Assembly: GCF_009905375.1 (NCBI RefSeq)
Contig: NC_133656.1
Location: 228,311,739-228,375,738 of the forward strand
Direction of reading: 5' to 3'
Origin: Apium graveolens
Taxonomy: Eukaryota; Streptophyta; Magnoliopsida; Apiales; Apiaceae
DNA: 64,000 bases
Part shown: positions 28,557-50,852 of the stretch, in pieces
Numbering within the stretch: position 1 is the first letter of the stretch
How the letters are laid out: the number at the start of each line of letters is the position of its first letter
Program-made: the position numbers and the translations under genes
The notes under the pieces: generated by a model
The model's input: only the letters and a program-made list of their open reading frames with translations
What the model was told of the DNA's origin: nothing
Databases searched by the model: none

Positions 28557-28567
28557 TCCTTTATATG
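28557..28567 (-). promoter_or_regulatory. TATA box upstream of B env-like ORF
   Basis: Minus-strand CATATAAAGGAG directly below the palindrome array and above a long CT-rich leader. The ATG is about 470 bp downstream, and GT and AG sites in the leader would allow an intron. Inferred promoter. Confidence 0.5.
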
Positions 28568-28571
28568 ACAG

Positions 28572-29282: not shown

Positions 29283-31012
29283 TTAATCACTAAAACTATT
29301 CAACATGCCCAATTTACCAACTAATCTGGTAAATGTGGATTCGTCAAGTGGTTTAGTGAAAATATCTGCTATTTGTTCTTCTGTTGGAACAAAAAATAGT
29401 TCAACAGTACCATTCATGACGTGCTCTCTAATAAAATGATACCTGATGTCAATGTGCTTTGTCCTCGAGTGCTGCACAGGGTTGTTGGTGATGGCTATTG
29501 CACTTGTATTGTCACATAAAATAGGAATCTTGTTCAATACAGAGCCATAGTCTCGTAGTTGGTTCCTAATCCACAAGATCTGAGCACAGCAGCTTCCAGC
29601 AGCAATATATTCAGCCTCGGCCGTTGAGTTGGAAACTGTTTGCTGTTTCTTGCTGTACCATGAGACTAGCCTGCTTCCTAGGAATTGACAACTTCCTGAG
29701 GTGCTTTTCCTATCAACAACACTTCCTGCGTAATCTGAATCTGTATATCCAACAAGGTTAAAACCAGATTCTTTAGGGTACCAAATACCTAGATTTGGTG
29801 TTCCCTTAAGATATCTTAAGATTTGTTTAACAGCAACGAGATGAATATCTCTAGGATCCGCTTGGAACCTTGCACATAAACATGTAGCATACATAATATC
29901 TGGTCTACTTGCAGTAAGATAGAGTAACGAGCCAATCATACCTCTGTAGCTTGTGACATCTACCTTAATGGAGTTTTCACATGGTCCAAGCTTGACAGCT
30001 GTAGTTGATGGAGTCCTTGCTGATGCAGAATCCTCTAGATTGTACTTTTTGAGGAGTTCCTTGAGATACTTGGATTGATAAATAAATGTTCCATCTAACC
30101 TTTAATTTACTTGTAATCCAAGAAAGAACTTCAGCTCTCCCATCATGCTCATTTCAAACTTGCTGTGCATTAACTTAGCAAATCTCTTACAGAGATTATC
30201 ATTAGTAGACCCAAATATTATATCATCCACATAGACTTGGACTAATATAGTATCCTTCTTATGTGTTTTAGAAAAGAGAGTTTTGTCTATGACACCTCTA
30301 ATAAAGCTATTTTCAATAAGAAATTCAGAGAGAGTGTCATACCATTTTCTTGGAGACTGTTTTAGCCCATAGATAGCCTTGAAAAGAAAGAAGACAAAAT
30401 CCAAATGATCTGGATCTTCAAAACCAGGAGGTTGCTCTACATATACCTCTTCATCCAGCTTTCCATTCAGAAAGGCGCTCTTGACATCCATTTGATAAAC
30501 TTTAAAGTTTGAAAATACTGCGAATGCCAGAAATATCCTGATGGCCTCAAGTCTAGCCATTGGAGCATAGGTTTCATCATAATCAATGCCTTCAGCTTGA
30601 GAATACCCTTTAGCTACCAGTCTTGCCTTGTTTCTTGTAACCACACCATCTTCATCTAGTTTATTCCTGAATACCCACCTAGTACCAACAACTTTCTTGT
30701 GTACAGGCCTAGGTACCAGTTTCCAGACTTGTTGACTTTCAAACTGATTGAGTTCATCTTGCATAGCAATCACCCAATCTGGATCAGTCAGTGCTTCTTC
30801 AATTTTCTTAGGTTCCATCTCAGAAAGAAATCCTGAGAACAGACACTCATTTTGAGTAGCACGTCTAGTTCTGACTCCAACATCTGGATCACCAATAATC
30901 AACTCAAAAGGGTGAGCTTTATTCCAGACAGTCTGTCTTGGAAGATTTGATCTTGATGATTCGCCTTGAAATTCATTGTGATGTTGTGTCCTACTAGATG
31001 ATCCTTCAGCAT

Positions 31013-31029
31013 CTCCCCCTGAGTTGTTG
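31013..31029 (-). other. Internal polypurine-like tract in B IN-RT linker
   Basis: Minus-strand CAACAACTCAGGGGGAG is identical to 38728-38744 of element C, although the surrounding linker protein is poorly conserved. It copies the core of the real polypurine tract (AGGGGGAGAT). It may be a central priming site. Confidence 0.45.
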
Positions 31030-33599
31030 CCATGTTGACTTGAAGATTCTCCATCAGTAGCAGTGGTATCTCCATTGTTGCCAAAGTTTCCATCACTATT
31101 ACCTTGAGTATCATCAGGATTAACAGGTTCTTCACCAGCAACAACCTCAGGTACTTGACCATGTTCTGATTCTGAATCTGACGTATCATCAAACTTTAGT
31201 TTCTCAGAAGGATCTTCAGTTTGGATACTAGGGAGTTTAGTGTCATCAAATGTAACATTGACACTTTCAGTTACTTTGTGTTGATCAATGATATACACTC
31301 TATATGATCTTCTTCCATATCCAACAAAAATACCCTCATATGCCTTTGCCTCGAACTTACCATGACGATCATCTCCATCCTTGAGCACGAAGCATCTGGC
31401 ACCAAATACATGAAAGTATTTGATAGAAGGTTTCTGTTCATTCAAAATCTCATAAGGAGTTTTCATGAAGTCTTTGTTGATTAGAGTTCGATTCTGAGTA
31501 TAACATGCAGTATTGACAGCTTCAGCCCAAAAGTACATTGGAAGACCTGATTCACTTAACATCGTTCTTGCAGCTTCAATCAATGTACGATTCTTCCTTT
31601 CTACCACTCCATTTTGCTGAGGGGTTCTAGGAGCTGAAAATTGTCTGGTAATCCCTTTGTCTGTACAGAATCCATTGAGAAGTGCATTCTTGAATTCTGT
31701 CCCATTATCTGACCTTATTGCTCTAACAGGGACGTTAGAATCTAACTCAATCATCTTGATATGATCAATCACAACTTGTGGTGTTTCATCCTTAGAGTGA
31801 AGAAATAAAACCCACGTATACTTGGAATAGTCATCAACTATCACAAGACAGTAACACTTCTTTGACATAGAAAGGATATTAACTGGACCAAATAAATCCA
31901 TGTGCAATAATTGCAGAACACCAGTTATGGAAGATGTGTCAGTGCCTTTGTGACTTGCTTTCTTTGACTTTCCTTTCTGGCAAGCCTCACATAGTCCTTC
32001 TGGAGAGAATTCCAGCTGAGGCAGACCTCTTACCAATTCTCTTTTGACAAGAGAACTCATTGTTTTGAAATTGAGATGAGAAAGTCTCTTGTGCCATAGC
32101 CAACTCTCATCTGACGATGCCTTTGCATAGAAACAATTGACTTCAAGATTGCTTCCAGAGTTCATGTCAGCTACGAACAGATTTCCTTTCCGGATTCCCA
32201 TTAAGGAGGGTTTTTCACTTTTCTTGTGCAGAATCTGACACTTCAGCTTGTCGAATAAAACATTGTAGCCGTTGTCACAGAACTGACTAATGCTAAGCAG
32301 ATTGTGTTCAAGTCCTTGCACAACATACACATTTTCAATGATAACATTTCCAGCTAGCAAACAACCATATCCCTCCGTTAAACCTTTGCTGTTATCTCCA
32401 AAGGTAACCACTGGGCCAGCTTTCTCAACCACATTTGATAGCAGGGCTCTATCTCCGGTCATATGTCTTGATGATCCGCTGTCAAGAATCCACACTACCG
32501 GTTGTACCTGTTTAATGCCCTCTTTTCTTGACGATGAGGTGCTTGCATTACTAGCCATGAGAGCAAGATTCCCAACTTCTTCATCTTCACTGTCAGTATC
32601 ATCCCAGCTTCTTCCCTTTGCCAGGTACGCCCTTTCAGATTTACTCTTCTGATTAGAATCGTAAGAGTTCTTCCTAGCTTGTTTTGGCTTCCTGCATTCT
32701 GTGGCAAAGTGTCCCAACTCATTACAGTTGAAGCATCGAATGGTGCTTCGATCAACCATCCATGTTTTATACCCACCACTGCTGGTGTTAGAGGATGAAG
32801 ATCCACCTTTCTGGAATCTGTTGTAGTTGGACTTGTACTTGAACTTGGGATTCCTTTTGAATCTGACATTTGAGAATCTCTTGACAATCAGGGCCATTGA
32901 CTCATCCTCCAATTGCTCCAGTTCTTCCAAGGAATAATAATCATCTCCTGATTGATTTGAAGTAGGAGAATCAAATTCTGCTACTATCACATTATCTTCA
33001 ACCTTGGAAGACTGTACCATTCTTTCTGACTGTTGAGATTGTTGTTGATATTGTGTTGTTGTTGTTGTTCATCAGCTACTAGAGCAGTAGACGTGCTGAC
33101 CACTCTTCCTTTCCCGTAAACTTCCTTCTACTGAATCTGCTCCAACTCATAAGTCTTTAACACACCATAGAGCCTTTCCAAAGAAATCTCACTCAGATCT
33201 CTTGCTTCTCTTATGGCAGTGATTCTATGTTCGAGATGAGTTGGCAGTGTTAAAAGGAACTTTTTGTTGACCTCCCTGATGGAATAGTATTTACCAAAAA
33301 TGTTCAGGTTGTTGATCAATGCATTGTACCTCTCAAACACTTCAGTGATTCCTTCTCCTGGATTGGATTTAAAGTATTCATACTCAGAGGTTAGGATTTC
33401 TAGTTTGTTCTCCCTAACTTCCTCTGTGCCTTCATTAATAATCTCAATAGTTTCCCAGATATGTTTGGAATCTTTACAATTCATCACATGTCTATTCATC
33501 AGGGGATTTAGGGAATCTACTAAGATTAATTGAAGGCTAGCATCCAGGGAAGCTTCTTCTATTTCAGCAGGAGAGAAGTCCTCAGGATCCTTCACATAA

Positions 33600-33604
33600 G
33601 TTCT
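33600..33604. repeat. Target-site duplication of element C, left copy
   Basis: GTTCT here and at 46726-46730 flank the two LTRs of C. Confidence 0.95.
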
Positions 33605-33680
33605 TGTTAGGAATATATGTGCATTAGTTTGATGATATGTTTAACAAAACACTTAAGTAGAAATTCAGTGTCTGTAGCCT

Positions 33681-34037
33681 CAACGGATAAGACCACTTTG
33701 GCTATCCGTTGATGGTGTAGCTTTACTTAGAAATAAGTCTAGTGTTGTAGCATATTTCAGTCTCTGTATTTAAGATGTAATTCTTAGAAGTTGAGAGAAA
33801 CTATGAGTCATGTTGACTACTAGAAGATATGCAGATAGGAAGGCCAATTGTAAATATTTCATGCCTTGTAATTTTGTATAAATGAAGTGGTATCAACGGA
33901 TGACTTAAAGACCTTCAACGGATGAGAAGCTAAGCTTCAACGGATGTCTCTAAAGCTTCAACGGATAACATCCTTCAACGGATGAGTGCATCAACGGATG
34001 AAAGCTTCAACGGATGTTCTGTTGATTAACCGTTGAT
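33681..34037 (+). promoter_or_regulatory. CAACGGAT motif array in C 5' LTR
   Basis: Nine exact copies: eight CAACGGAT (33681, 33894, 33916, 33938, 33959, 33976, 33992, 34008) and one inverse ATCCGTTG (33704), plus a degenerate inverse at 34028. The seven clustered copies are 22, 22, 21, 17, 16 and 16 bp apart. The array ends about 105 bp before the TATA box, where an upstream activating region would lie. Confidence 0.75.
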
Positions 34038-34143
34038 AAGTGGTAGTTGTACCTACAAACAGAGGCACGTGGGTGAACAGAGATAACTGAAATGTGGCAG
34101 CCTAATTTCAGGAACATCAGAAAAAGCAGCCGTTCTACTCTAG

Positions 34144-34150
34144 TATAAAG
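34144..34150 (+). promoter_or_regulatory. TATA box of C 5' LTR
   Basis: TATAAAG within the LTR; the same site is at 46250-46256 in the 3' LTR. Confidence 0.6.
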
Positions 34151-34621
34151 AGACATTAAGTCAACAAAGTACTGGAGTGAACTGGAGAAGAAACAAGTGG
34201 AGATCTTACTTTATTATTTTATTATATCCTAGTCTTCACTTGTAAACTTGGTAATATATAAACCAAGTAGTAGCTAGTAATTAGATAAGAATTTTTCCAG
34301 AGCTGTTTAGAAAAATCTTGAGAGAAAAATTATCTAGTTTGTACTAGGATGCAGCTGTGATCAAATTCTTAGATCACAGAATTTCTGAAATACCATCTCT
34401 CATGGAACAACAAATCCACCAGAAAAGTTTTTAAAGGTTTATTGTGTTCTTTACATTTGTGTTTGAATATATATCTGTCTGTATCAGCTTAAAGCAATTC
34501 ACACACTTGTTCATCTTGAACACACAGTCTTTATAAACTGCTCAAAACTTGAAAAAGTTTTGAGATTTACATTCAACCCCCCTTCTGTAAATCTCAGTGT
34601 TAGTTCTCTAGAAATAACAAT

Positions 34622-34633
34622 TGGTATCAGAGC
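34622..34633 (+). other. Primer-binding site of element C
   Basis: TGGTATCAGAGC two bases after the 5' LTR, complementary to initiator-Met tRNA. Confidence 0.92.
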
Positions 34634-34680
34634 AGGCTCTTGACAAACAAAGAGTTTAAAGATCTTGGAATCTAACAAAG

Positions 34681-37107
34681 ATGAGTAAGAAGGATATTGG
34701 AGTAAAAATCCCAGTTCTTGACAGAGACAGTTATCACCACTGGAAGGTGAAAATGCACCTTCATCTACTCTCCTAAGATGAAGGTTATGTAAACTGTATT
34801 GAGAATGGTCCTCACATTCCCCACAAAGTAGCCACAGTTGCTACGGCCACAATTGCTGTTGGTCAATCCATTCCAAAACCTAGAGCAGAATGGACAATGG
34901 AAGACACAGAAGAAGTCCACAAGGATAAGAAGGCTATGAACATTTTGTTTAATGGTCTTGACAAGGATATGTTTGATAATGTGATAAATTGCTCAACTGC
35001 CAAAGAGGTTTGGGACACAGTCCAGCTGCTGTGTGAAGGTACAGAACAAGTAAAAGAGAACAAGATGCAGCTTCTCATTCAACAGTATGAGTATTTTCAT
35101 TTTGAAGAAAATGAATCTTTAAATGACACATTTAACAGATTCCAAAAGCTGTTGAATGGATTGAAGCTGTATGGTAGAGTGTACCAGGTGAAGGATTCAA
35201 ATCTTAAATTCTTAAGATCCTTGCCAAAGGAATGGAAACCCATGACTGTCTCCTTAAGAAACTCTCAGGATTATAAGGACTTCACTCTTGAAAGATTATA
35301 TGGAATCTTGAAGACTTGTGAACTAGAGTTGGAAAAGGATGAGGTATTGGAGAAGGGGAGAAAGAAAGGAAGTTCAGTTGCATTGGTAGCTGAAAATGAG
35401 AGGGAATGCAGACAAGAAACTGTGAGATCTACATCAAACTCCAAAGATGGTACAAGATATCAGGAATCAAGCAAAGGAAAAGAACAAGTTGCTGAGAATG
35501 AAGACAACTCCAGTCAAGATGACTCTGATAGTGTTGATGAGCATCTTGCATTTCTGTCCAGGAGATTTGCAAAGATGAAGTTTAAGAAAAACACTAGAGC
35601 CACTAAACCTCATAAGAACATGGTGGACAAATCAAAGTTCAAGTGTTTCAATTGTGGTATAAGTGGACACTTTGCAAGTGAGTGCAGAAAGCCAACCTCT
35701 GAAAAGAAGAAATTTGACCAAGTAGATTACAAGAAGAAATATTTTGATCTACTCAAGCAAAAGGAAAGGGCTTTCATTACTCAAGAAAAAGATTGGGCAG
35801 CTGATGGAGAGGAAGAGAATGAAGATGTGGAGTATATCAACTTAGCTCTCATGGCTGATTCTGAGGAAAATGAAGTTAGTTCATCAAGCAATCAGGTAAC
35901 AACTCAGGTAATCACTACTGATGTAACACAACTTACTAAAGAAGAGTGCAATGATGCTTTTAATGACATGTCTACTGAATTGTATCATTTGCGTGTGTCT
36001 CTTAAATCTCTTGCTAAAGAAAATAGTAGGATTAAAGAGAACAATCTGTTTTTAAGTAATAGAAATGCTATGTTAGAAGATAAGTTGATTGACCTAGAGA
36101 AAACCAAGCTGCATTGTATATCTGTTGAGAATGAACTAGCTGAATCTATTAAGAAAGTAGAAATACTTTCTAATCAATTAAAGAGAGAGCAAGAGGTGAT
36201 TAAAGCCTGGAAAACATCTAGGGATGTTAGTGCTCAAATTGCCAAGGTCCAAGGAATTGAATCATTCTGTGAAACTGCCTGGGATAAAAACAAAAAGAAA
36301 CTGGAATTAATTGATGGGCTGTCAACGGATGTGGAATCAACGGATGATGAAGGTTATCCGTTGAAGGAAGAAAATGAGCATCCGTTGAAGGTTCCTCAAT
36401 TAAAACAGGCAGATGTTTCTATTAGTGAAAATCTAAAGAAACTCAACAAAAAGTTTGGTTCAACTTCCAAGAACTTTGTTAAAGAAGAAGCAAGCACATC
36501 CAAAGATGTCAGTAAGGTGAATATAGGGCACATGACCTTAGAACAGTTAAATAATAGGCTCAAGATGGTTGAGGATAAAAAGGAAACTAAAAGAAAATCT
36601 AACAGAAATGGGAAGGTAGGTGTTAACAAACATAACAATTACACACCTGATAGGTATGCTCCTAGAAAAAGCTGTGTGCATTGTAGTAGTGTTAATCATC
36701 TATCTGCTAATTGCAAATCTATTAAGAAAACCCCCATAACTGTACCCTCTTCCATGCCTAACATGTCTGCATCATCTCTACATGCTATGCCTACTATGTC
36801 TCAACAGAATCCTTATGCACATTTTGCAAACATGCCATATTTTAACAATCCTTATCTTGCTGCATTTAGTATGCCTCAAATGCCATACAATATGCCTATG
36901 TGGAATAACATGTATGCACAATCCATGCCTTATCATATTCCAAATGTGCTAAATGATTCTGTGACTAACCCTACACCTCAACCAACTACATCCAAGACCA
37001 AGGTTGACTCAAAGTTACCTAAGTCTAGAGATGCAGGAGGAATGAAGTCTAGGAGAAAGGCTAACAAGAATGGACCCAAGGAAACTTGGGTACCAAAATC
37101 AAATTGA
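34681..37107 (+). pseudogene. gag: Element C gag
   Basis: 809 codons from ATG 34681 (MSKKDIGVKIPVLDRDSYHHW) to TGA 37105-37107, with a single in-frame TAA at codon 32 (34774-34776), probably from CAA. The UBN2-type copia Gag domain lies at residues of about 70-225 (NCSTAKEVWDTVQLLCEGTE, TLERLYGILKTCE). A first zinc knuckle CX2CX4HX4C begins at Cys322. A long Lys/Glu-rich coiled-coil-like region follows at about 370-530, then a second knuckle CX2CX4HX4C at 665-678, a Met/Pro-rich stretch and WVPKSN at the end. Four motif copies are embedded at 36323-36387 (STD and HPL codons). Gag is longer than in most copia elements. Confidence 0.9.
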
Positions 37108-38553
37108 TTGATTTTATGGTGTGCAGGGAAATAGAAGAAATCTATGGTACTTGGACAGTGGCTGTTCAAGACACATGACAGGAGATTTCTCCCTGCTCAC
37201 AGAGTTTAAGGAAAGAGCTGGCCCTAGCATAACCTTTGGAGATGACAGCAAAGGGTTTACTATGGGATATGGCTTGATTTCAACAAGGAATGTCATCATT
37301 GATGAAGTTGCATTAGTTGATGGTCTCAAACATAACTTACTGAGCATCAGTCAACTATGTGATAAAGGGAATATAGTTTCCTTCAATTCTGAAGCCTGTG
37401 TTGTCACTAGTAAGAAAGACAACAAAGTGGTTCTAACTGGAGTTAGAAAAGGAAATGTGTACTTAGCCGACTTCAACTCTGCAAATGCAGAATCTATTAC
37501 TTGTCTCTTCAGCAAAGCAAGTTCAGTTAAGAGTTGGCTATGGCACAAGAAGTTATCCCATTTGAATTTCAAGACAATGAATGATCTAGTCAAAAAGGAC
37601 CTAGTAAGAGGAATTCCTCTTGTTGAATTCTCAAGGGATGGTTTGTGTGATGCTTGTCAGAAAGGCAAATAAAGGAAAGCATCATTCAAAAAGAAGCTTG
37701 AAACAACAATTGATGAACCATTACAGCTGCTACATATGGATTTGTTTGGACCAGTCAATGTATTGTCAATTGCAAGAAAAAGATATTGCTTAGTGATTGT
37801 AGATGATTTCTCAAAGTTTTCATGGGTCTATTTTCTTGGATCAAAGAATGAAGCAAGTGAAATCATTATCAATCACATCAGGCAAGTCAATAATCATCCT
37901 GACCTGAAGGTTAGGAATATCAGGAGTGACAATGGAACTGAGTTCAAGAATTTATCAATGAGGCTGTTCTGTGAAGAAAATGGAATCATGCATGAGTTCT
38001 CAGCTCCAAGAACACCTCAGCAAAATGGGGTAGTTGAAAGAAAGAACAGATCTTTAATTGAGGCTGCCAGAACAATGCTTGAAGAATCAAAGTTACCAAC
38101 ATATTTCTGGGCTGAAGCTGTTAATTGTGCCTGTTTCACTCAAAATATCTCTTTGATCAATCAAGCTAAAGGCATGACTCCTTATCAGTTATTCAAGAGA
38201 AGAAAACCAACTCTAAACTTTCTTCATGTCTTTGGATGTAAATGCTTTATACTAAGGAATCAATCTGACCATAAAGGGAAGTTTGATGTAAAGGCTGATG
38301 AAGGGATATTTGTTGGTTATTCAGCTGGAAAATCTTATAGGGTCTACAATCTAAGAACCAACATTGTTATGGAATCTGTGCATGTTGTGTTTGATGATAA
38401 AAAGATTGATGGACTAACAGATGAGGGACACTATGAGAGACTCAAATTTGACAACATTGAGATATATTGTGATGATAGTGAAGAGGAGACTGATGGAGAT
38501 AACACTTCAAAAGGGATTCAAAACATGCCCTTGGATAATGCACAAAATACTGC

Positions 38554-38677
38554 ATCCGTTGAAAGTCAGAATTCTGCATCCGTTGATAGAGGCAATGCAG
38601 TATCCGTTGAAAGACATGGTGTATCATCCGTTGAAGTACTAAATGAAGCATCCGTTGATCATAGTTTATCAACGGAT
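38554..38677 (+). repeat. 24-bp coding tandem repeat built on the element motif
   Basis: ATCCGTTG recurs at 38554, 38578, 38602, 38626 and 38650, exactly 24 bp apart, with an inverse CAACGGAT at 38670. In pol it encodes five 8-residue units of the form N-x-A-S-V-(E/D)-x-x. The linkers of A and B lack it. Confidence 0.8.
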
Positions 38678-38727
38678 AATCGATTTACATCATCAGTTGA
38701 TAGAACTCCAAGTTCCCTGCAAAGGAC

Positions 38728-38744
38728 CAACAACTCAGGGGGAG
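38728..38744 (+). other. Internal polypurine-like tract in C IN-RT linker
   Basis: CAACAACTCAGGGGGAG, identical over 17 bases to the same place in B. Confidence 0.45.
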
Positions 38745-40552
38745 TTTCAACTAGTCAACACTCTGTCTCACATCATGACAATACTGAGGCCACCTCATCT
38801 AGAGCACATCTTCCACTTCAAAGGAAATGGACCAAGAATCATCCCTTTGAACTGATCATTGGTGATGCATCATCTAAAGTGCAAACAAGAAGAGCTACTC
38901 AAGATGAATGTCTGTATAGTAGTTTTCTATCTCAGGAGGAACCTAAGAAAGTGGAAGAAGCCTTATTGGATCCAGATTGGATATTAGCTATGCAGGAAGA
39001 GCTAAACCAATTTGAGAGAAACCAAGTTTGGAAGCTGGTACCCAAACCAAAGAACAAGAGTCCTATTGACACAAAATGGGTATTCAGAAACAAGATGGAT
39101 GAAAATGGCATTATCATAAGGAATAAAGCCAGATTGGTTGCTAAAGGCTATTCTCAGCAAGAGGGAATAGATTTTGATGAGACATATGCTCCTGTTGCAA
39201 GACTTGAAGCCATCAGAATTTTTCTAGCCTATGCAGCTCATGCCAATTTCAAAGTCTATCAAATGGATGTCAAGAGTGCATTTCTAAATGGGAAATTAGA
39301 GGAAGAAGTCTATGTGAGTCAACCTCCAGGATTTGAAGATCCAAATTTTCCAGACTATGTATATTATCTGTTGAAAGCACTCTATGGACTGAAGCAAGCA
39401 CCTAGAGCCTGGTATGAAACCTTATCAAAATTTCTTTTGGAGAATCACTTCACTAGAGGTACTGTTGATAAAACTCTCTTCTTTAGGAATGTTAATGGCT
39501 CTAGTATACTTGTTCAAATTTATGTAGATGACATAATATTTGGTTCTAAAGATGATAAACTTTGTAAAAAGTTTGCTAAGCTAATGCAAAGTAATTATGA
39601 AATGAGCCTTATGGGAGAACTAACCTATTTTCTTGGTTTACAAATTAAACAAGTTAGTAATGGAATTTTCATTAGTCAAACTAAATATATTCATGATCTT
39701 TTAAAGAAGTTTGACTTAATGGAATGTTCATCTGCAAAAACTCCCATGGCCACTGCCACCAAACTTGAAGTAAATAAGACTGAAAGGTCTGTGGACATTA
39801 CAAGTTATAGAGGCATGGTTGGTTCACTTTTATATTTAACTGCTAGCAGACCAGATATAATGTTTGCTACATGTCTGTGTGCTAGATTTCAAGCTGATCC
39901 TAGGGAGTCTCACTTAATAGCTATCAAAAGGATTTTCAGATATCTCAAGGGTACAACAAATTTAGGTATTTGGTATCCTAGAGAATCTGGCTTTGATCTA
40001 ATTGGTTATTCAGATGCAGACTATGCAGGTTGCAAAATAGACAGGAAAAGTACAACAGGCTCCTGCCAATTCCTGAGGAACAAGCTTGTATCATGGTTTA
40101 GCAAAAAGCAAAATTCAGTCTCTACTTCTACAGCTGAGGCTGAATACATTGCTGCTGGAAGTTGCTGCTCTCAAGTGTTATGGATGAGAAATCAACTCCT
40201 TGACTATGGACTTCATGTTGATAGAATTCCTATCTTTTATGACAACACAAGTGCCATAGCCATAACAGAGAATCCTGTACAGCACTCAAGAACCAAGCAC
40301 ATTGATATCAAGTACCACTTCATTAGGGAGCATGTCATGAATGGTACAGTGGAACTACATTTTGTTCCAAGTGAACAACAAATTGCAGACATATTTACCA
40401 AGCCACTTGATGAATCAACATTCACAAGATTAGTAAGTGAGCTAGGTATGCTTAATTACTCTTAAAATTCATGTCCTTATTGCAATTTGAATTGAAGCCT
40501 GAAATATATTAGTTGCTAGAACAAATTTGACTTTTAACAAAGTTTATACCAT

Positions 40553-40704
40553 CAACGGATGTTTCCTATCCGTTGAAAGTCAAAATTGCTCTATCAACGG
40601 ATATTCATTATCCGTTGAAAGACAAATACATTTCTGGAATTTTTATCCGTCAACGGATAAAACTGAAGTACCTTTCAACGGATGACAATTTGCCTTATCC
40701 GTTG
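40553..40704 (+). promoter_or_regulatory. CAACGGAT array between C pol and env-like ORF
   Basis: Seven exact copies, mostly as facing pairs (40553/40568, 40595/40610, 40676/40697) plus 40651. They lie 200-350 bp before a TATA box and the env-like ATG, paralleling the LTR arrangement. Degenerate copies follow to about 40765. Confidence 0.75.
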
Positions 40705-40898
40705 AAATGTCACATCAGTCGATTCAGGTGTTTCACAGCCGTTGATTCTATTTTCTTAACCGTTAATACTCATACATACATCTGTATGTATTGGTTTTAA
40801 AGGTAGTTGTTAGAATACTTACAGTTTATTCTTAAACGGCTGAAATTCACTAACATATACTTATTGATTAATCTTTTACTAATTTTTTTTTTTAAAGC

Positions 40899-40907
40899 AT
40901 ATAAGCC
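40899..40907 (+). promoter_or_regulatory. TATA box upstream of C env-like ORF
   Basis: CATATAAGCC about 110 bp before ATG 41014, followed by a pyrimidine-rich leader and a good plant start context (AACAATGGC). Suggests separate transcription. Confidence 0.6.
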
Positions 40908-41013
40908 CTTCTGATTTTTCATTTTTACTTTACGCTTTCTTAAAATTTCAAGCATTTACCATTTTCTCTCTGCAAAACCTTCAAGTTATTCTCTGCAATT
41001 TCTACTCACAACA

Positions 41014-44000
41014 ATGGCACCAGTCGTGAAAATTATGTCTCAATCTGGGTTCATCTATGAGAAGAACAATTTCATAGCTTTGGTAGAAAAGAATGAAGCC
41101 CATTCAGACTATCACAAAATGATGGACTTCATCAAAAACTGTAAACTTAGCTATGCAATGCTGGAAGCCCCAACGATTTACTGTGAAGTAGTTGAGGAGA
41201 TTTGGACAACTGCTGAGTTCAACTCCATAGATATGACTATCTCCTTCACTCTCAAAGGTAAAAATCACTGTATTAACTGTGATGATTTACAAGCATGTTT
41301 TAAATTACCTGAGAACAATGCCATGACACCACACACTGATAATGATGTATCCAGCATGTTAGATTCCATAGGTTATTCTCTTAACTCTGCTAGTTTAGGG
41401 AGTATTAGAAGAAAAGGCCTTAGGAAAGAATGGAGCTTTCTTGGGGATGCCTTTATAAAGGTTTTCTCTGGGAAAATTAGTAATTTTGATGCCATAACTT
41501 CATCTCTTGTTAATATGCTCTATATGCTTGTTTCTGATAGGTATTTTAACTTTAGCAACTATGTGATGCTAGAATTGGGTACTAGATTAGGTAACAAAGT
41601 TAATAGACCTAATAACATCTATTATGCTAGATTCTTTATGTTATTGGCTAACCATGTTGCTGAAGGTTTGGTCATAATCAATGAGAATAATAAACTCAAG
41701 TGCTGGGCACAAGAGAAAAGAGTTCTTGCAGATTTATTGAGAATGGATCTCAACAGCAGTGTGCCATTGGTATATTTACCAATCATGAATGCACCTCAGG
41801 TAGGTGAGGTAATTGCTTCTACAACTCCTACTTCTTCCAACCCCTCTATTTCTTTATCTTCTAGTATGGCCATGAAATCTGTGACAATGCCCCAACAGAT
41901 TTCTACCAAGGTCACCAAAACTAAACTTTCAAAATCAAAGACAAAGAAAACCACCTCTGTTGTTTCTCAAAAGACAACAGTTGTAACACCAACCATTAAC
42001 CCTGAGGGGAGTGAACAGGGTGTGAGTGGTGAGGGGAGGGGTGAACATCAAAGAAACCCCCAGGATAAGGAAGGAGAGTTAAGTGTTTCCCAAGCTAGCC
42101 AAGCCACAGTTTCTCAAAAAGCTGTGGTGGTTGAAAAGGTATCTAGCACATCCCTAGTTGCATCCTCCCAAAAGGATGTTACTATTGAAAATAGTTCCCA
42201 ACCAGGAACACAGAACAAACGAGGGAGGGACACTGAAGCCAAACACTCACCAACAAAAGATTTTATTAGAAGAAAGAAGGCTAGAACCCAATCTTCTACA
42301 CAGGGTGCACACACTGCACAGATACATCCATCTGTATCTATGCCTTCTCAAACTCAGTTTGATGTGGCTCCAATAAATGTGGAGTCACAGCCCCATTCTC
42401 TCACAATAATCACACATCAATCACCAAACACTTCATCACCATCTCTGGATGTGGATATGTTATTCCCATCAATTCCTGATTCTCCCTCTTTACAGCTCAG
42501 GGAGGAGCCCCACTCAAATACAGGTGATCATCATCTCTTAGATGATTTGTTGGATCACCCGCAAATTCTTTCAGATATAATTGAAGGATCTGTGTCACCA
42601 TATCTCAAATCAATCTACACAGATTCAACAGTTATATCACTTTCAATTTCAACTTCTTTTCCTTCTTCAACGGATATCACTCATCCGTTGACAAGTGGTT
42701 GCTCTTCAATGGATAAGCTTAACAGCAGTTATCCGTTGATAACATCAGTTTCACCTTCAACGGATATTCCACATCCGTTGATAGTCTCTCCACACATAAC
42801 TGAATCAATTCCAAGTGTAGAAGACATGAATACTGTGCAATCACTCTTAGGATTGAGGGAAGGGAGTGAAAATTTGAGTGAGAGGCTGGGTTGCTCCCAG
42901 GCAAAAGGAGAGATTGAGAGCTCAAAAATGCATGCTATTTCTTCCAGTATGGCAAAAGTAAGTGAGAGGAGTACCACCTTAGTAGGTGAAGGTGAGGGAG
43001 TGAGTTGTGTGAGCCAGGGGGAGCCCCTGATGCAAGAAAATAGAGAAAAAGAGAGAAAGGCAGGTACAGTAGATATAAGGGTGGAACCAGCCATTGTTAG
43101 TGAGTCAATGATTGTGGATGATGCTGAAAAGGAAAGACAATTTCAGCAACATTACAAAGCTGTAATTGATAACATTTCCTTGGATGCTGACACTTTTACT
43201 CATCCTGTGTCAGCCTATCAAATGTTGGCTGCTCAGGGCAATGAGGAGGCAGAAAAGACACTACATCTAGTACACACAACAGAATCTCTTCAAAGGGATA
43301 AAGCTGCTATTAACAAGATGTCTTCTACAGCTGGTGAGCCATCTGAGGAATTTGGAGTAAATTCTGATGATGATGACTCTGTTTCTTTTGATGGAAGCAT
43401 GAACTTAGGGGGAGATGAAGGCCCTAGTTCAATTCCAAATCTACCTGAATGGGCTTTGACAAAGGAGTATAGATCAGGGGAATTCAATGTCTCCTTAGTC
43501 AAACAAATCAACACTATTCAACAGGCCATTCTGAACACTTCACATGCAAGTATCAAGGCTATCCTTCAAGCTCACCTGGACTCACTGCATCTCATGAAGT
43601 TGCAGCAAGTAAAGCAGAATCTGAGTATGGATGATCTCAGGAAGGATATTGCTGACTTGAAATCCTACAGTTCTGAAAAATTGGATTCAGTCATGCCCTA
43701 TGGTACATTGCAGGACTTGGTTTTGAGATTGAAAAAGGAATCAGTTACTGAGAAAAGGCTGGCCAAGTTGGAAGACAGAGTTCAAGTTATTGAAGATTCT
43801 GTGGCCACCATTCTTCACAACCAACAATCTCAAACCAGTCTCCTAATGCAGTTGGCAAAAGCACAAGGCTTGACCCCTCTTCTTGATGATAACAAAAAGG
43901 GGGAGAGTAAAAGGGAAGGGGAAGGAGAGCCATCTACAAAAATCAAAATATCTAAAGTGCTAGTTCCTGCCATCACTACTTCTCCAATCATTCAAATCAA

Positions 44001-45522
44001 AGGAAAGCCTGATGGAATTGATTTGATTCAGCTAGCAGCAGCTGAAATTCAAGTGAAAGAGCAAAGGAGGAGAATTGATGAAAGGTTGCAACTGTTGTTT
44101 GGCTCTACACAAGATAAATCAACATCTGTGAAATATAGCACAAAGATTGAACCAATCAACATGGAGCTCAAGCCAGTAGGGAGACATAAGGATGGAGAAG
44201 CTTCTTCCAAAGAACTACAAGCTATAATTCTCAAGCCCAATAAAAGATCCAATAAGGACTCTACAAAGAATCCTTTAAAAGAAGTGGACTTTCCTCCTCC
44301 AAAAGCTGATGAGAACAAGCTTTTAGGTAGGAGTATTGCTTATCTCAAAGAGACCATGGATGAGGCTGTAAGGAGAAATAGGGCTATTATCTCTAGAGAG
44401 GGAAAGAGCATATGTGTGATGCAAGGACATCCCAAATTCTCAATAGCCAAGAAGGAAGAAGTCAAGCAACTAAAGGCTGACAAAAGAGCACAAGCAAAGC
44501 TTGAACAACAGCTAAAGTCAAGTCAAGTTGAAGAAGAGAAAGGAATTGAAGTCAGGGGTGAAGACAAGATTGCAAACCTAGATGAGGTTTTTGGGAGTAT
44601 ATTTGGTGAGAGTATGGAAGAAAGAGAGGAATGGCAGAAGGGAAACAGAAGAAAGGCCAAGGCACATAGAAGGAGTGAAGATAATACTGAAGTAACCAAA
44701 TCTATATCTAAACCACTACCTTCCATACCTGAACCTCTTGTTGTTAATCCCACTATAAACATCCGTGGTGAACCAATCATTCCAAAAGAGGAACCTATTG
44801 ATTGGGACACCATCAAATTGCCTACCTTTCTAACCACTCTTCCACTACCAAAGAAACAGAAAAGAAAACCCAAATCTACACCTCCCATAACCTCTAAGAA
44901 ATTCACTCAAAAACAAAAGCCTAAGCCTAAGCCATCCATTTCTAAAGATGATTATGTTCACATCTGTGACATAAAAGAAATTTCAGACATTGAACTCTAT
45001 CTGGATGAGCTGGAGGATGTAAGAGGAATAGCTGCTTACAGACAGCTACCAGAGAGATTAGTGTTCAGATACAAAGGAGTTGGGGAAAGAACATGGCCTC
45101 TCCACAGGATTCTGAATGAAGGCTACTCTACCTTGATTAGAGTCTTTTCAGCTATAAAAAAGGATTCTGGCTTTACCAGAACTGCCAAGACTGAAATTCT
45201 CAACAAGATTGCCAATATAAGGAAAACTTGGAGGGAGCCCAATGCTTTACCCAGGACTTTACTCATTCAAGAAAGGGGAATTACAATTCACAAATCACCT
45301 CATTGGTTGATGGAATTTAGAGATGATAAAGGAGTCAGAAGATTTTTCAGACTTGAAGACCAACTCAAGATTGCCAGCAATGAAACTCTCAAGGAAATGC
45401 AATCTAAGTTGGATATCAGTGTTGAAGATGAAGCTGAATTCTTCAGACAACTCCAACTCCAAATTGAGGAAAATGACAAAGGGCTAGGAAAGAAAACCAG
45501 GGAACAAAGAAGAAAAAGATGA
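41014..45522 (+). CDS. Element C env-like (post-pol) ORF, intact, 1502 aa
   Basis: The longest intact ORF of the window. The N-terminal domain (about residues 1-235) shares order and anchors with the ORFs of A and B: MAPVVKIMSQSGFIYEKNNF, EEIWTT, and YYARFFMLLANH near 208-219. Residues 270-760 are Ser/Thr/Pro/Gln-rich and probably disordered. Residues 860-960 are helical with coiled-coil character. Residues 1100-1200 are Lys/Glu-rich, and PKKQKRKPKS near 1290 is a likely nuclear signal. A C-terminal domain (about 1310-1470; LYLDELEDVRGIAAY, RTWPLHRIL) looks globular. No signal peptide or membrane helix is visible, so a true envelope is unlikely. Five motif copies lie inside at 42668-42780. 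The biochemical role is unknown. Confidence 0.88.
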   Translation: MAPVVKIMSQSGFIYEKNNFIALVEKNEAHSDYHKMMDFIKNCKLSYAMLEAPTIYCEVVEEIWTTAEFNSIDMTISFTLKGKNHCINCDDLQACFKLPENNAMTPHTDNDVSSMLDSIGYSLNSASLGSIRRKGLRKEWSFLGDAFIKVFSGKISNFDAITSSLVNMLYMLVSDRYFNFSNYVMLELGTRLGNKVNRPNNIYYARFFMLLANHVAEGLVIINENNKLKCWAQEKRVLADLLRMDLNSSVPLVYLPIMNAPQVGEVIASTTPTSSNPSISLSSSMAMKSVTMPQQISTKVTKTKLSKSKTKKTTSVVSQKTTVVTPTINPEGSEQGVSGEGRGEHQRNPQDKEGELSVSQASQATVSQKAVVVEKVSSTSLVASSQKDVTIENSSQPGTQNKRGRDTEAKHSPTKDFIRRKKARTQSSTQGAHTAQIHPSVSMPSQTQFDVAPINVESQPHSLTIITHQSPNTSSPSLDVDMLFPSIPDSPSLQLREEPHSNTGDHHLLDDLLDHPQILSDIIEGSVSPYLKSIYTDSTVISLSISTSFPSSTDITHPLTSGCSSMDKLNSSYPLITSVSPSTDIPHPLIVSPHITESIPSVEDMNTVQSLLGLREGSENLSERLGCSQAKGEIESSKMHAISSSMAKVSERSTTLVGEGEGVSCVSQGEPLMQENREKERKAGTVDIRVEPAIVSESMIVDDAEKERQFQQHYKAVIDNISLDADTFTHPVSAYQMLAAQGNEEAEKTLHLVHTTESLQRDKAAINKMSSTAGEPSEEFGVNSDDDDSVSFDGSMNLGGDEGPSSIPNLPEWALTKEYRSGEFNVSLVKQINTIQQAILNTSHASIKAILQAHLDSLHLMKLQQVKQNLSMDDLRKDIADLKSYSSEKLDSVMPYGTLQDLVLRLKKESVTEKRLAKLEDRVQVIEDSVATILHNQQSQTSLLMQLAKAQGLTPLLDDNKKGESKREGEGEPSTKIKISKVLVPAITTSPIIQIKGKPDGIDLIQLAAAEIQVKEQRRRIDERLQLLFGSTQDKSTSVKYSTKIEPINMELKPVGRHKDGEASSKELQAIILKPNKRSNKDSTKNPLKEVDFPPPKADENKLLGRSIAYLKETMDEAVRRNRAIISREGKSICVMQGHPKFSIAKKEEVKQLKADKRAQAKLEQQLKSSQVEEEKGIEVRGEDKIANLDEVFGSIFGESMEEREEWQKGNRRKAKAHRRSEDNTEVTKSISKPLPSIPEPLVVNPTINIRGEPIIPKEEPIDWDTIKLPTFLTTLPLPKKQKRKPKSTPPITSKKFTQKQKPKPKPSISKDDYVHICDIKEISDIELYLDELEDVRGIAAYRQLPERLVFRYKGVGERTWPLHRILNEGYSTLIRVFSAIKKDSGFTRTAKTEILNKIANIRKTWREPNALPRTLLIQERGITIHKSPHWLMEFRDDKGVRRFFRLEDQLKIASNETLKEMQSKLDISVEDEAEFFRQLQLQIEENDKGLGKKTREQRRKR

Positions 45523-45697
45523 TTTGCTCAGGCTAAAGGAGTATCCTTGGAAATACTGTAAATCTTCAATTTCCTCCTAGTACATACATTTTTGCAGCAT
45601 TTTCAAATTTCTACTTAGTTTCAATTCATATATCTGTTAAGTGTTTTGTTATCATCAAGTTAACCCTGAATTTATGCCTACAATTCTTATAGACATA
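45523..45697 (+). other. 3' untranslated region of C env-like ORF
   Basis: A 175-bp AT-rich stretch between the ORF and the polypurine tract; no gene seen. Confidence 0.6.
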
Positions 45698-45710
45698 AAT
45701 AGGGGGAGAT
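45698..45710 (+). other. Polypurine tract of element C
   Basis: AATAGGGGGAGAT immediately before the 3' LTR. Confidence 0.93.
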
Positions 45711-46725
45711 TGTTAGGAATATATGTGCATTAGTTTGATGATATGTTTAACAAAACACTTAAGTAGAAATTCAGTGTCTGTAGCCTCAACGGATAAGACC
45801 ACTTTGGCTATCCGTTGATGGTGTAGCTTTACTTAGAAATAAGTCTAGTGTTGTAGCATATTTCAGTCTCTGTATTTAAGATGTAATTCTTAGAAGTTGA
45901 GAGAAACTATGAGTCATGTTGACTACTAGAAGATATGCAGATAGGAAGGCCAATTGTAAATATTTCATGCCTTGTAATTTTGTATAAATGAAGTGGTATC
46001 AACGGATGACTTAAAGACCTTCAACGGATGAGAAGCTAAGCTTCAACGGATGTCTCTAAAGCTTCAACGGATAACATCCTTCAACGGATGAGTGCATCAA
46101 CGGATGAAAGCTTCAACGGATGTTCTGTTGATTAACCGTTGATAAGTGGTAGTTGTACCTACAAACAGAGGCACGTGGGTGAACAGAGATAACTGAAATG
46201 TGGCAGCCTAATTTCAGGAACATCAGAAAAAGCAGCCGTTCTACTCTAGTATAAAGAGACATTAAGTCAACAAAGTACTGGAGTGAACTGGAGAAGAAAC
46301 AAGTGGAGATCTTACTTTATTATTTTATTATATCCTAGTCTTCACTTGTAAACTTGGTAATATATAACCCAAGTAGTAGCTAGTAATTAGATAAGAATTT
46401 TTCCAGAGCTGTTTAGAAAAATCTTGAGAGAAAAATTATCTAGTTTGTACTAGGATGCAGCTGTGATCAAATTCTTAGATCACAGAATTTCTGAAATACC
46501 ATCTCTGGTGGAACAACAAATCCACCAGAAAAGTTTTTAAAGGTTTATTGTGTTCTTTACATTTGTGTTTGAATATATATCTGTCTGTATCAGCTTAAAG
46601 CAATTCACACACTTGTTCATCTTGAACACACAGTCTTTATAAACTGCTCAAAACTTGAAAAAGTTTTGAGATTTACATTCAACCCCCCTTCTGTAAATCT
46701 CAGTATTAGTTCTCTAGAAATAACA
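45711..46725 (+). repeat. 3' LTR of element C (1015 bp)
   Basis: Matches 33605-34619 with about four substitutions and no indel. Carries the same nine CAACGGAT/ATCCGTTG copies and the TATA box at 46250-46256. Confidence 0.95.
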
Positions 46726-46925
46726 GTTCTCGCTTTGGTGATCACCACATCATTTTCTATTACCTCTGGTTCCATAACCATAGGAATTTTTGGACCCTTC
46801 TTCAACACTTGCAAATATTTGGGATTAGCAACCTGTAAAAACAGTAGCATCTTCTTCTTCCACATAACATAATTTTCTTTATCGAAAAGTGGAATTTTAA
46901 CGGTTCCAACTTTTTGTGTAGTCAT
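46726..46925 (-). pseudogene. gag: Element B gag, N-terminal part
   Basis: ATG at 46925 opens MTTQKVGTVKIPLFDKENY, a copia Gag start, and runs into the right TSD of C at 46726. The frame resumes at 33604 (VKDPEDFSPAEIEE), so C split this gene. Confidence 0.9.
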
Positions 46926-47007
46926 TATGAATTTTTGAGTGAATAAAAAATTCAAGAAGTGAAAGAAACACAAAAGTCTAGGATCTAGATTTGTACGTTA
47001 ATCAGAA

Positions 47008-47020
47008 GGCTCTGATACCA
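47008..47020 (-). other. Primer-binding site of element B
   Basis: Minus-strand TGGTATCAGAGCC two bases inside the 5' LTR; initiator-Met tRNA type. Confidence 0.92.
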
Positions 47021-47022
47021 AT

Positions 47023-48377
47023 TGTTAGGTCCCAATTTGTTTGTAGAAGGGGGGGTTGAATGCAAACAATACCGTTTAGTCGAATAAAATGCGGAATAAA
47101 ATTGTGAAACAAAATTCAAGTTAAATAAAACTTTTATTAAACTTGAAAGGTGTTACAACTACGGTATCGGTTACAAGGGATTAATCTCAAATCAATTATT
47201 ACAAATCTAGAATAAATTCGACATGAACTTTTTCTATTTTTGTAATTAAAAAATCAAATGCTAAATGCGATTTGAGATTAAGTTCTAGGGATTTTAATCC
47301 GCTAGATTGATACACAAGAACAAGATAAGTATTTCTAGTTGATTGGATTTAACTTTACAATCTAGAAATTGATCTTGAAGTTGCAGATGAGATGAAATAT
47401 TTTTCTGCTCCTTTTTCTTTTGTTCTTGAGTTTTTGTTCTGTTTTTGATTGATTTTGAAATAATAGACTTCTGCTCCTTTTTATCAAACAGCCGAATGTA
47501 AACATGTACTGGCATGACAATCTTCTTTGGCCAGCAAGACTTTCGGTATGACAAAATTTATAACTAGCAAGACAATTAAAATGAGATAGCAAGACTTTCG
47601 GTATGACTATTGATTGTCATACCGATGGTCATATTAGTTCAAATAAATTGTCTTGCTGAATTAATAACAGATTTTAATCTAAACAGAAATTCTAATAAGA
47701 CAATTAAATGTATTGGCATGACTTTCGGTATGACTATCAATTGTCATACCGATTGTCATACTAGTTCAAATGAATTGTCTTGCTGAATTTAAGCAGATTT
47801 TAAACCAATTAAAATCTTGTAAATCCTTAATATTAATTCTAAATTAATTAATCAATTTAATTCAATTAATCAATAAATTAATCTTTGTAGATATAATTTA
47901 TTTTCTTAATTAAATTATATGACTTAATTAATTAATAGAGAATTAATACTAACCCTGAGCAGCATCCATTCTTCTGACAATCTTCTGAAAGTCACTGAGA
48001 CTTATGAATCAATTCCGCCACTTCAATGCTGACACTCGATGTACTGTCTGGTTCATGAGTGACTAACTTCCGTGACGTTTCTTCATGTCTTGACTTTGAT
48101 ATTCTGATTGAATCCTTGTAATAAATGATACCCTGACGAGATCTCTGTCACTTGATTAAATCCACGATCTTGATTTATATCACTGAGGCATGATCAAATT
48201 CTTGAACTTCTTCCAGTGAATCTTCAAGTCTGCAGATGAACAATGTTTCTTTATTCTTTGACATATGTTACATTGTGAGATCTCTCTGACGATTGATCCA
48301 CTATTTACTTATTACATTCTTATTTGAGTTGAGTTAAATACTCGAATAAATGAGTAGGCTATGACATATGCCTTTCA
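47023..48377 (-). repeat. 5' LTR of element B (1355 bp)
   Basis: TGTTAGG to CTTTCA, same length as the 3' LTR. Contains the GTCATACC/GGTATGAC array at about 47506-47786, with one core changed (CCGATGGTCAT) relative to the other LTR. Confidence 0.95.
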
Positions 48378-48721
48378 GGATCAAAGTTACTAATCTTACC
48401 AGAAAATACCTTAGTTACCACATCACACAAATAGCTCCATTTCTTTCTAAGACCTAACCTCCTAATTTCACTTAACTTAGAAGTGAAAGTTATGGTTTTG
48501 TCAGTAGAGTTGTACACAATAGTTGTCCATATCTCCTCTACAACCTCACAGTAGATTGTGGGAGATTCCAGCATCGCATAATTAAGTTTACAGCCTTTCA
48601 CAAAATCCATCATTTTGTGATAATCTCCAGACTGTTGAATCTCCTTGTTCACAAGAGTTGTGAAATTGTTCTTTTCATAGATAAATCCAGACTGGGACAT
48701 GATTTTGACAAGTGGTGCCAT
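48378..48721 (-). pseudogene. Element A env-like ORF, N-terminal fragment
   Basis: ATG at 48721 opens MAPLVKIMSQSGFIYEKNNF, nearly identical to element C. It shares YHKMMDF, LNYAMLESPTIYCEVVEEIWTT, and VFSGKISNFD, where B interrupts it. A segment of about 50 residues present in C (after FTLKGKNHCIN) is missing here, an internal deletion. Confidence 0.9.
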
Positions 48722-48827
48722 TGCTAAAGATTTGAAATTTGCAGAGAGAGTATTTGCTTTTGAGGAAGAACGAAGTTAGAGCAATTGATTCTTGAGAATG
48801 ATAAAAGAGTAGAATAAAAATGAATTC

Positions 48828-48840
48828 TGCTTTTATACTA
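48828..48840 (-). promoter_or_regulatory. TATA box upstream of A env-like ORF
   Basis: Minus-strand TAGTATAAAAGCAG about 110 bp before ATG 48721, the same spacing as in element C. Confidence 0.55.
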
Positions 48841-48980
48841 TCTGAGAAATAAACTGACAAAAATAATAAGGTGAAATAACGTAACCAATTAAAATTGCCC
48901 AAAATAGTCGTTTGAAAATAAATAAACTGTAAAAATTCTTTCAATTATCCATCGTGTTATGCTTACAAACTGTAAGTATA

Positions 48981-49150
48981 CTCAATGGATAATGTCTAGA
49001 ATTCCGACGACTAAGATTGAGACAATTCGACGGATGAGGATAAAACAATTATCCGCCGAGTTATAAAATACTCCAGAAAAATAATTGATTTTATTAACAA
49101 ACAATATACCGACGGATGACCAAACTCGATGGATAATGAGCATCCGTCCA
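48981..49150 (-). promoter_or_regulatory. CGACGGAT/CGATGGAT motif array in element A spacer
   Basis: Six or so related copies (TCAATGGAT, CGACGGATG twice, ATCCGCCG, CGATGGAT, CATCCGTC), in both orientations, at the same place as the CAACGGAT array of C. A variant of the C motif rather than random decay, since CGACGGATG also recurs inside the A env-like ORF at about 9862. Confidence 0.6.
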
Positions 49151-49245
49151 GATGTAAATTTTGACTTAGCCAAAATTTCATCCAAAACTAAAAAATCATT
49201 TAATTTTCTGGCTGCATTATAACTTGCAAAAATATCTGAAATGGT

Positions 49246-50852
49246 TCAAGAATAATTAAGCATACCTAACTCACTTACCAACCTTAAAAAGGTGGATTCA
49301 TCAAGTGGCTTGGTAAAGATATATGCAAGATGCTTTTCACTTGGAAGTTCCACAATACCATTCATCACATGTCCCCTTATGAAGTGATACTTGATGTCTA
49401 TGTGCTTTGTTCTTGAATGTTGTACTGGATTTTTAGTGATGGAAATTGCACTTTGTTATCATAGAAAATGGGAATTTTGTCCACTTGTAGACCATAGTCC
49501 AACAATTGGTTTTTCATCCCCAAAATCTGTGCACAACAACTGCCAACAGCAATATATTCAGCTTCAGCTGTAAAAGTAGAAACTAAATTTTGCTTTTTAC
49601 TGAACCAGGACACAAGCTTGTTCCCTAGAAATTGACAGGTTCTTGCTATACTTTTTATGTCTATTTTACAACCTGCATAATCTGCATCTAAATAACCAGT
49701 TAGATCAAAACCAGAATCTCTAGGGTACCAAATGCCAAGTTTTGGTGTTTCCTCGAGATATCTGAAAATTCTCTTAATAGCTACTAAGTGAGATTCTCTA
49801 GGATCAGCCTGAAATCTAGCACAAAGACAAGTAGCAAACATTATATTTGGCCTACTAGCTATTAAGTATAGAAGTGAGCCAACCATGCCTCTATAGCTTG
49901 AAATATCCACAGACTTTTCAGTAGTGTTTAACTCAAGCTTAGTTGCAGTGGTCATGGGAGTTTTTGCTGATGTGCAATCCATTAGATCAAACTTCTCTAA
50001 AAGATCATGAATATACTTAGTTTGACTAATGAATATTCCATCACTAACTTGCTTAACTTGTAAACCAAGAAAGTAAGTTAGTTCTCCTATCATGCTCATT
50101 TCATACTTACTTTGCATCAATTTGGCAAACTTTTTACAAAGTTTTTCATCTGTAGAGCCAAATATAATATCATCTACATAAATTTGAACAAGTATACTAG
50201 AGCCATTAACATTTCTAAATAATAAAGTTTTATCAACAGTACCTCTTGTGAAGTAATTTTCCAAAAGAAACTTTGATAAAGTGTCATACCAAGCTCCAGG
50301 TGCTTGCTTCAGTCCATAAAGTGCTTTCAAAAGATAGTAGACATATTCTGGAAAATTTGGATCTTCAAAACCAGGAGGTTGACTGACATAGACTTCCTCC
50401 TCCAAATCTCCATTTAGAAAGGCACTTTTGACATCCATTTGATAGACCTTGACATTGGCATGGGCTGCATAGGCTAAGAAGATTCTGATGGCTTCAAGTC
50501 TTGCAACAAGAGCAAAGGTTTCATCAAAATCTATTCCTTCTTGTTGACAATAACTCTTAGCAACCAATCTAGCTTTGTTCCTGACCACAATGCCATTTTC
50601 ATCCATCTTGTTTCTGAACACCCATTTGATGTCAATTAGATTCTTTCCTTTAGGTTTGGGTACCAGCTTCCATACCTTGTTCCTTTCAAATTGGTTTAGC
50701 TCCTCCTGCATAGCTAAAATCCAATCAGGATCTAACAGAGCTTCTTCTACCTTCTTTGGTTCTTCTTTGGATAGGAAGCTGCTGTATAGACATTCTTCTT
50801 GAGTTGCTCTCCTTGTTTGAACTCTAGAAGATGCATCACCAATGATGAGCTC
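49246..50852 (-). pseudogene. pol: Element A pol: RT and RNase H part
   Basis: The 437-codon open part (49398-50711) holds RT with YVDD ([17 protein letters not shown]) and most of RNase H. A small deletion near 49455 shifts the frame after FYDN; the remainder ([17 protein letters not shown] to LGMLNYS) ends at 49246-49248. Upstream the same frame reaches [20 protein letters not shown] and stops abruptly at about 50852, where unrelated sequence starts. Very close to element C pol. Confidence 0.9.

Follow-up and report, generated by a model that had tools for sequence, protein, structure and literature searches.

Two described systems come closest to the one analysed here, a short word repeated throughout element C (positions 33605–46725), a young Ty1/copia retrotransposon of the Sirevirus type located in a 64-kb window of celery (Apium graveolens) DNA, the window being the whole stretch under analysis; papers are cited from excerpts. 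The RM boxes of Sireviruses are family-specific, mostly CGG/CCG-cored, high-copy motifs that form CpG-rich clusters in the long terminal repeats (LTRs) upstream of the TATA box and in the linker upstream of ENV (PMC2829016). In the VANC/VANDAL system, a word of about 9 bp is repeated along one transposable-element family, words differ between related families, and an extra protein is encoded by the element (PMC5735166, PMC10398659). Additional open reading frames (ORFs) with PF20167 have also been described in plant LTR retrotransposons, located after pol and predicted to give nuclear products (PMC11728184); such ORFs are present in elements A and E of the window, whereas ORF4 of C, its "env-like" ORF, gave no PF20167 match.

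As with RM boxes, a repeated CGG-core word precedes both the TATA box in the C LTR and the extra ORF; unlike RM boxes, which are palindromic, the C unit TCAACGGAT is asymmetric and stands in both orientations, with only some neighbours arranged as inverted pairs (PMC2829016). RM boxes were reported from LTR and linker and, in two elements, from the ENV start (same excerpt), whereas the C arrays lie also in gag, pol and the middle of ORF4, and the word differs in a concerted manner between C and its sister family D. Searches of open-licence papers in PMC gave no report of arrays in gag, pol or mid-ORF4. The LTR and spacer arrays are a known Sirevirus feature; the gag, pol and mid-ORF arrays, the concerted word change and the confinement of CpG mostly to words are new. 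The system of C is a more extensive form of the Sirevirus RM system than the one in these excerpts, and the concerted change points to a coevolving trans factor. The likeness to VANC is a family-specific short word at high density; however, VANDALs are DNA transposons, their words, mainly non-coding, evolve in the manner of tandem repeats, VANC has been proven to bind and to demethylate (PMC5735166, PMC10398659), and it has DUF1985/DUF287, undetected in C ORF4. By analogy, anti-silencing of the VANC kind is the best inference for how the C system works; homology to VANC is not claimed.

The reading preferred here, given a probability of about 0.5, is that TCAACGGAT is the recognition word of a coevolving nuclear DNA-binding protein, most likely the ORF4 product, with self-directed anti-silencing or activation as the most likely effect.

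The word in element C

An earlier note, made from the letters of this DNA alone, had claimed about 40 exact copies of an 8-bp motif, CAACGGAT, in C. The window holds 41 (100 dinucleotide shuffles: mean 0.96, largest 4), 40 of them within 33605–46725, and the claim is confirmed. The real length of the word is 9 bp, all 40 copies in C being TCAACGGAT. When only one LTR is included, 12,106 bp of C hold 31 copies against 0.015 expected (first-order Markov, used in place of a shuffle; 0/200 shuffles held a copy), and just 8 one-mismatch copies were found in C. The exact word is absent from the rest of the window (0 exact, 12 one-mismatch copies) and from one further 10-kb genome stretch (L039), the unrelated DNA in which an equal density would have told against the note. 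Its distribution (9 words per LTR, 4 in gag, 6 in the pol linker, 7 in the spacer, 5 in the env-like ORF, both orientations) was recovered, as were its reading frames (STD/HPL in gag and env-like ORF, SVE/SVD in pol). As to clustering just upstream of TATA boxes, the main LTR array lies ~130 bp upstream of one (Table 1), another TATAAA (33877) stands directly upstream of that array, and the pol–ORF4 spacer has no TATA[AT]A match. Starting in the 5' LTR, successive arrays are separated by 2.0–2.4 kb as far as the one in ORF4, and the 3' LTR array follows 3.3 kb further on; that the internal arrays are evenly spaced (min-gap P 0.0008; P 0.003 for the coefficient of variation) was noted post hoc and serves as description only.

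The family is very abundant in celery (78,444 first-look candidates), and the ORF4 N-terminus is 98–100% identical in 127/127 scored copies. Thirty C loci, one being that of the window, were drawn from these 127 and read; the spacer and ORF4 arrays are kept in 30/30 (11–19 words per 3.9 kb), so that the enrichment which the note expected in other copies is present in every one read. The sixth site of the ORF4 array (42706), one mismatch off in the window, is exact in 27/29 other copies (read from listed positions). The double site TCAACGGAT-N7-ATCCGTTGA occurs at 22,187 genome places, its reversed control at 0. Diverged LTRs (80–87% identical to those of C) in loci L002–L005 hold 10–14 words; L001–L008 were located via a word-pair search and show the persistence of the word, not its frequency. 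TCAACGGAT arrays were also seen at L007:1477–1665 and L008:1501–1548 in sequence unalignable to the C LTR, possibly another family with the same word. Of the note's view of a binding-site system dedicated to one element family, the first half is retained, binding sites for a putative reader protein being the best explanation; one family is too narrow, given the diverged LTRs of L002–L005, the mixed arrays of L001/L006 and the arrays of L007/L008.

Across the 30 spacers, 1/49 non-CpG word columns is variable against 18/109 flanking non-CpG columns between words (Fisher 0.008); over a wider spacer stretch, whose edges align poorly, 48/211 flanking non-CpG columns are variable (Fisher 0.0004). 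CpG columns of the words are variable in 4/14 cases, flanking CpG columns being too few for comparison. By these column counts the word is shown to be under selection in C spacers.

Sister family D and CpG depletion

At the DNA level, D is ~81% identical to C in pol and 69% in gag, and the LTRs are alignable in short pieces only. The D word, YCGAYGGAT, has G for A at word position 3 and is found at many of C's array places. Twelve D loci (one the fragment of the window) were surveyed for sites within one mismatch of TCRAYGGAT; 121 sites were counted against ~32 expected from composition shuffles, the commonest words being TCGACGGAT (26), CCGACGGAT (24), TCGATGGAT (18) and CCGATGGAT (12). Three D copies (L052–L054, out of 295 matches) were read further upstream: exact or one-mismatch D words are present in the LTR (both sides of the C-alignable block), pol linker and spacer, and the gag array in both copies whose gag aligns. 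No C word was found in L052–L054 and no D word in element C.

Twenty-three C sites, made up of 22 exact words and 42706, were compared one by one; word-like sequence is present in D at 17/23, and position 3 is G in 63/66 word-like site-copies (gag 6/6, pol 14/15, spacer 20/21, ORF4 23/24). Identity between D and C is 64–83% in words and 49–61% in flanks, and the sixfold +-+-+- layout of the ORF4 array is retained in D locus L043 with offsets within 1 bp. The alignments thus show a concerted word change between C and D. They strongly support the note's further claim that the DNA word rather than a peptide is kept, since the change alters amino acids (HPL/HPS/HQL) at retained array positions: by one base, D changes word and peptide while holding many of the positions.

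The concerted change also bears on a different reader, a fixed host transcription factor such as a MYB, with expression in dividing cells and the intragenic sites acting as enhancers. Within CAACGG lies AACGG, the MSA-element core to which MYB3R proteins bind; AACGG has been called MSA-like (PMC10905365); the main LTR array lies upstream of TATA; and RM boxes matched mainly sites of stress-related factors (Bousios 2010, PMC2829016). However, CAACGG is missing from the D word, which in this one genome occupies many of the positions that the C word has in C, and the carrot word predicted below lacks AACGG; concerted change is unpredicted by one fixed host factor, though a separate host factor per family would predict it. 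A host factor is possible but on balance doubtful.

Rather unlikely is that function is confined to the LTR and spacer arrays, in the role of ordinary RM promoter boxes, the intragenic copies having arisen incidentally through duplication or gene conversion in linkers tolerant at the protein level. Boxes in the LTR and upstream of ENV are indeed known (PMC2829016), the pol array has a minisatellite-like 24-bp period, and the intragenic arrays, by reading of the translations, are located in linkers and low-complexity regions; yet D conserves the intragenic arrays with a changed word although the flanks there are 51–61% identical. An RNA-level signal, in which inverted pairs form hairpins for packaging or translation, is very improbable: four +- pairs at 16-bp offset can give 9-bp stems with 7-base loops, and D partners differing by C/T could still wobble-pair, but most LTR and pol sites are direct repeats, their orientation free.

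CpGs were counted on one LTR plus the internal part of C (33605–45709). There are 49, of which 31 lie inside words; the 18 outside, in 11.8 kb, give an observed/expected ratio (o/e) of 0.043 (GpC 0.92); for CpG, the same ratio is 0.57 over the remainder of the window and 0.29 over the internal part of element B. In gag plus pol, 4 CpGs lie outside words in 5.6 kb, and the arginine codons of gag, pol and ORF4 are AGR in 155 cases vs CGN in 4. Among D copies, words hold 40/59 CpGs in L052 and 29/58 in L053. CpG is kept in the words, and 40/40 words are exact. As the LTRs differ by just 0.4%, the CpG loss probably occurred in the transmitted lineage and not after insertion; the pattern fits a lineage long exposed to CG methylation, the words being either selected or shielded. 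In the SIRE elements of sunflower, CG methylation falls sharply between the LTRs (PMC12844716), which may also reflect few CpGs. CpGs near words (7 in 1,063 bases at ≤60 bp, vs 11 in 10,764 farther; likewise in L052 and L053) were considered as a sign of local protection, which was set aside because several of them sit in decayed words.

That the word has no function and is left over from mutation, as a repeat containing CpG that slippage spread through a CpG-poor element, would suit the tandem layout of the LTR and pol arrays; it is the least credible explanation considered, in view of the selection signature in spacers, the survival of 31 word CpGs where CpG elsewhere is almost absent, and a concerted change without homogenised flanks.

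The putative reader of the word

A protein presumably reads the word, and ORF4 may be that protein, with anti-silencing as the probable outcome. In the proposed mechanism, a nuclear, sequence-specific protein coevolving with the element would bind TCAACGGAT; the arrays upstream of the LTR promoter, before ORF4 and at three intragenic places would bring bound protein near every part of the element; the ORF4 product would mark and open cognate copies only, as VANC does on VANDAL transposons; and where the specificity of the reader drifts, the word would change at most sites and sister families would separate. A fuller version is put forward tentatively, with the odds against it as a whole: a self-recognition system in which 9-bp words, set at intervals of about 2 kb across promoters and genes, are read by the extra protein, which shields the copies from CG methylation, the lineage having lost nearly every CpG not under protein, and word and protein changing together into mutually blind sister families.

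ORF4 is the leading candidate because its N-terminal domain is related to the ORF of element B (hhalign 98.9), the B word differs, and linker RM boxes were reported only in elements having ENV (Bousios 2010, PMC2829016). In a hydropathy scan (no dedicated predictor), C ORF4 has no clear transmembrane segment (best 19-residue value 1.33; N-terminus not hydrophobic); stretches resembling nuclear localisation signals are present (RRKKAR at ~419; a KR-x-RDT ... RKK pattern recurring in several homologues).

The word can also be read through ORF4 proteins, C's giving STD forward and HPL backward. When the 48 codings of STD were checked, HPL was obtained only from TCAACGGAT, HPS only from TCGACGGAT and HQL only from TCAACTGAT, and the rule correctly returns the words of C and D as known from DNA. 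The D-like celery protein P0002 has HPS/YPS/HPS; carrot proteins P0021 and P0022 have STD/HQL three times each. Since only TCAACTGAT encodes STD and HQL in opposite orientations, the word of the carrot family should be TCAACTGAT, a prediction from protein sequence.

Several results weigh against ORF4 as reader and against a strict match of word and family. No Pfam match was obtained on the N- or C-terminal part of C ORF4, and no DNA-binding domain was identified there; 21 members of the ORF4 family gave weak matches only (PF20167 in 4, best 0.013; Myb/SANT-like in 1, 0.019). Structure models of ORF4 are of low confidence (mean pLDDT 50 and 64), with no PDB match at E 0.001 or better, and hhalign against VANC DUF1985 gave a probability <1, with no DUF1985/DUF287 Pfam match, from shallow alignments. 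Homologues P0010 and P0001 have a hydrophobic stretch (1.91 and 1.76). Word and ORF4 were compared across C, D, B and carrot only, and six ENV-bearing Sireviruses are reported to lack RM boxes (Bousios 2010, PMC2829016). Heracleum P0012 and P0013 (51–52% identical) are without the paired peptide, so ORF4 can exist without that array. In element E (58313–60147), with a PF20167 ORF after the reverse transcriptase (RT), no repeated word was seen by eye in the spacer. Mixing occurs as well: one HPS stands beside two HPL in P0025, as it does in P0035, and in a third celery lineage (L001, L006; ORF4 69–71% identical to C and 71–74% to D over aligned parts) most words are of the C type and some of the D type. 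Genome-wide, word pairs number 22,187 A/A, 1,622 G/G (233 expected) and 1,619 mixed A/G, the mixed pairs still being fewer than the 4,398 expected under independence; pair partners are associated, imperfectly, and copy number inflates the counts. Two of the 12 D loci (L041, L046) have no spacer array, L041 having one C word. Lastly, at 5/23 C sites the aligned D sequence holds no D word, one site (40568) being set aside for a gap, in a comparison whose aligners favour word-to-word columns.

For the function of "env-like" ORFs in plant retrotransposons, concerted change of the word at 17 scattered sites, with altered amino acids inside genes, bears directly on the match of ORF4 and word. If each ORF4 should bind the word of its family and not the sister word, the reach of sequence-specific anti-silencing would widen from DNA transposons to a group that is among the commonest plant retrotransposons, and it could help explain the very high copy number of C in celery.

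Coordinates and other elements of the window

Features are collected in Table 1. The place of C among Sireviruses rests on the copia order gag–integrase–RT with an extra ORF 3' of pol. The LTRs are 1015 bp (4 mismatches/1016 aligned bases between 5' and 3' LTR), and the target duplication GTTCT is at 33600–33604. The 5' LTR is followed by the primer-binding site TGGTATCAGAGCAGGC (primer site TGGTATCAGAGC), and CAACCCCCC stands at 34577, near the LTR 3' end; these are taken here to be a primer-binding site and a polyC signal of Sirevirus form. One clear polypurine tract, AGGGGGAGA, is at 45701; two further purine stretches upstream fall inside ORF4.

Table 1. Positions of element C, its word arrays and related features in the window.
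Feature	Positions	Strand	Details
Element B, Sirevirus-like, carrying C as nested insert	23070..48377	-	own word GTCATACC
5' LTR of C, 9 words	33605..34619	+	TG...CA ends; GTTCT on both flanks
LTR inverted word pair	33680..33712	.	+ at 33680, - at 33704
LTR main array, 7 words, all +	33893..34016	+	~130 bp upstream of TATAAA at 34144
gag open frame (stop to stop)	34777..37107	+	Retrotran_gag_2, CCHC knuckle
gag array, 4 words (++--)	36322..36388	.	3/4 align to exact D word in L052
pol (Pol_BBD, pre-integrase, integrase, RT)	37112..40465	+	gag_pre-integrs, rve, RVT_2
pol linker array, 6 words, five on - at 24-bp period	38554..38678	.	in L052, 4/6 align to exact D words, one to a one-mismatch D word
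pol–ORF4 spacer array, 7 words, two inverted pairs with 7-bp linker	40552..40705	.	word count
ORF4, "env-like" protein, 1502 aa	41014..45522	+	ORF translation; Apiaceae homologues
ORF4 array, 5 exact words and one-mismatch site 42706, order +-+-+-	42667..42781	.	word count, D alignment
3' LTR of C, 9 words, layout as in 5' LTR	45711..46725	+	LTR–LTR alignment, word count
Fragment of D (RT, spacer, ORF4 start)	48359..50861	-	spacer with partly decayed YCGAYGGAT words

Element B, another Sirevirus-like element, in which C is nested, has its word GTCATACC (variants GTCTTGCC/GTCATGCC) 5 times per LTR (23070–24424, 47023–48377) and 7 times in the pol–ORF spacer (28574–28791); the spacer array is present in 12/12 loci read (of 147 matches), with 5–8 words and no C or D word.

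Element A, Ty3/Athila-like as judged by eye from its ORFs, has its PF20167 ORF at 14166–14990 (minus strand); CGCGGCCGCG palindromes stand in its LTR-like repeats and directly upstream of the extra ORF (12081–12139, 15140–15252, 22615–22647), a similar layout in another superfamily. An ORF4-like fragment (9308–10811, minus strand) is 71% identical to C ORF4 DNA, its homologous array consisting of mixed or decayed words; the 41st CAACGGAT of the window, at 9814, sits in this array.

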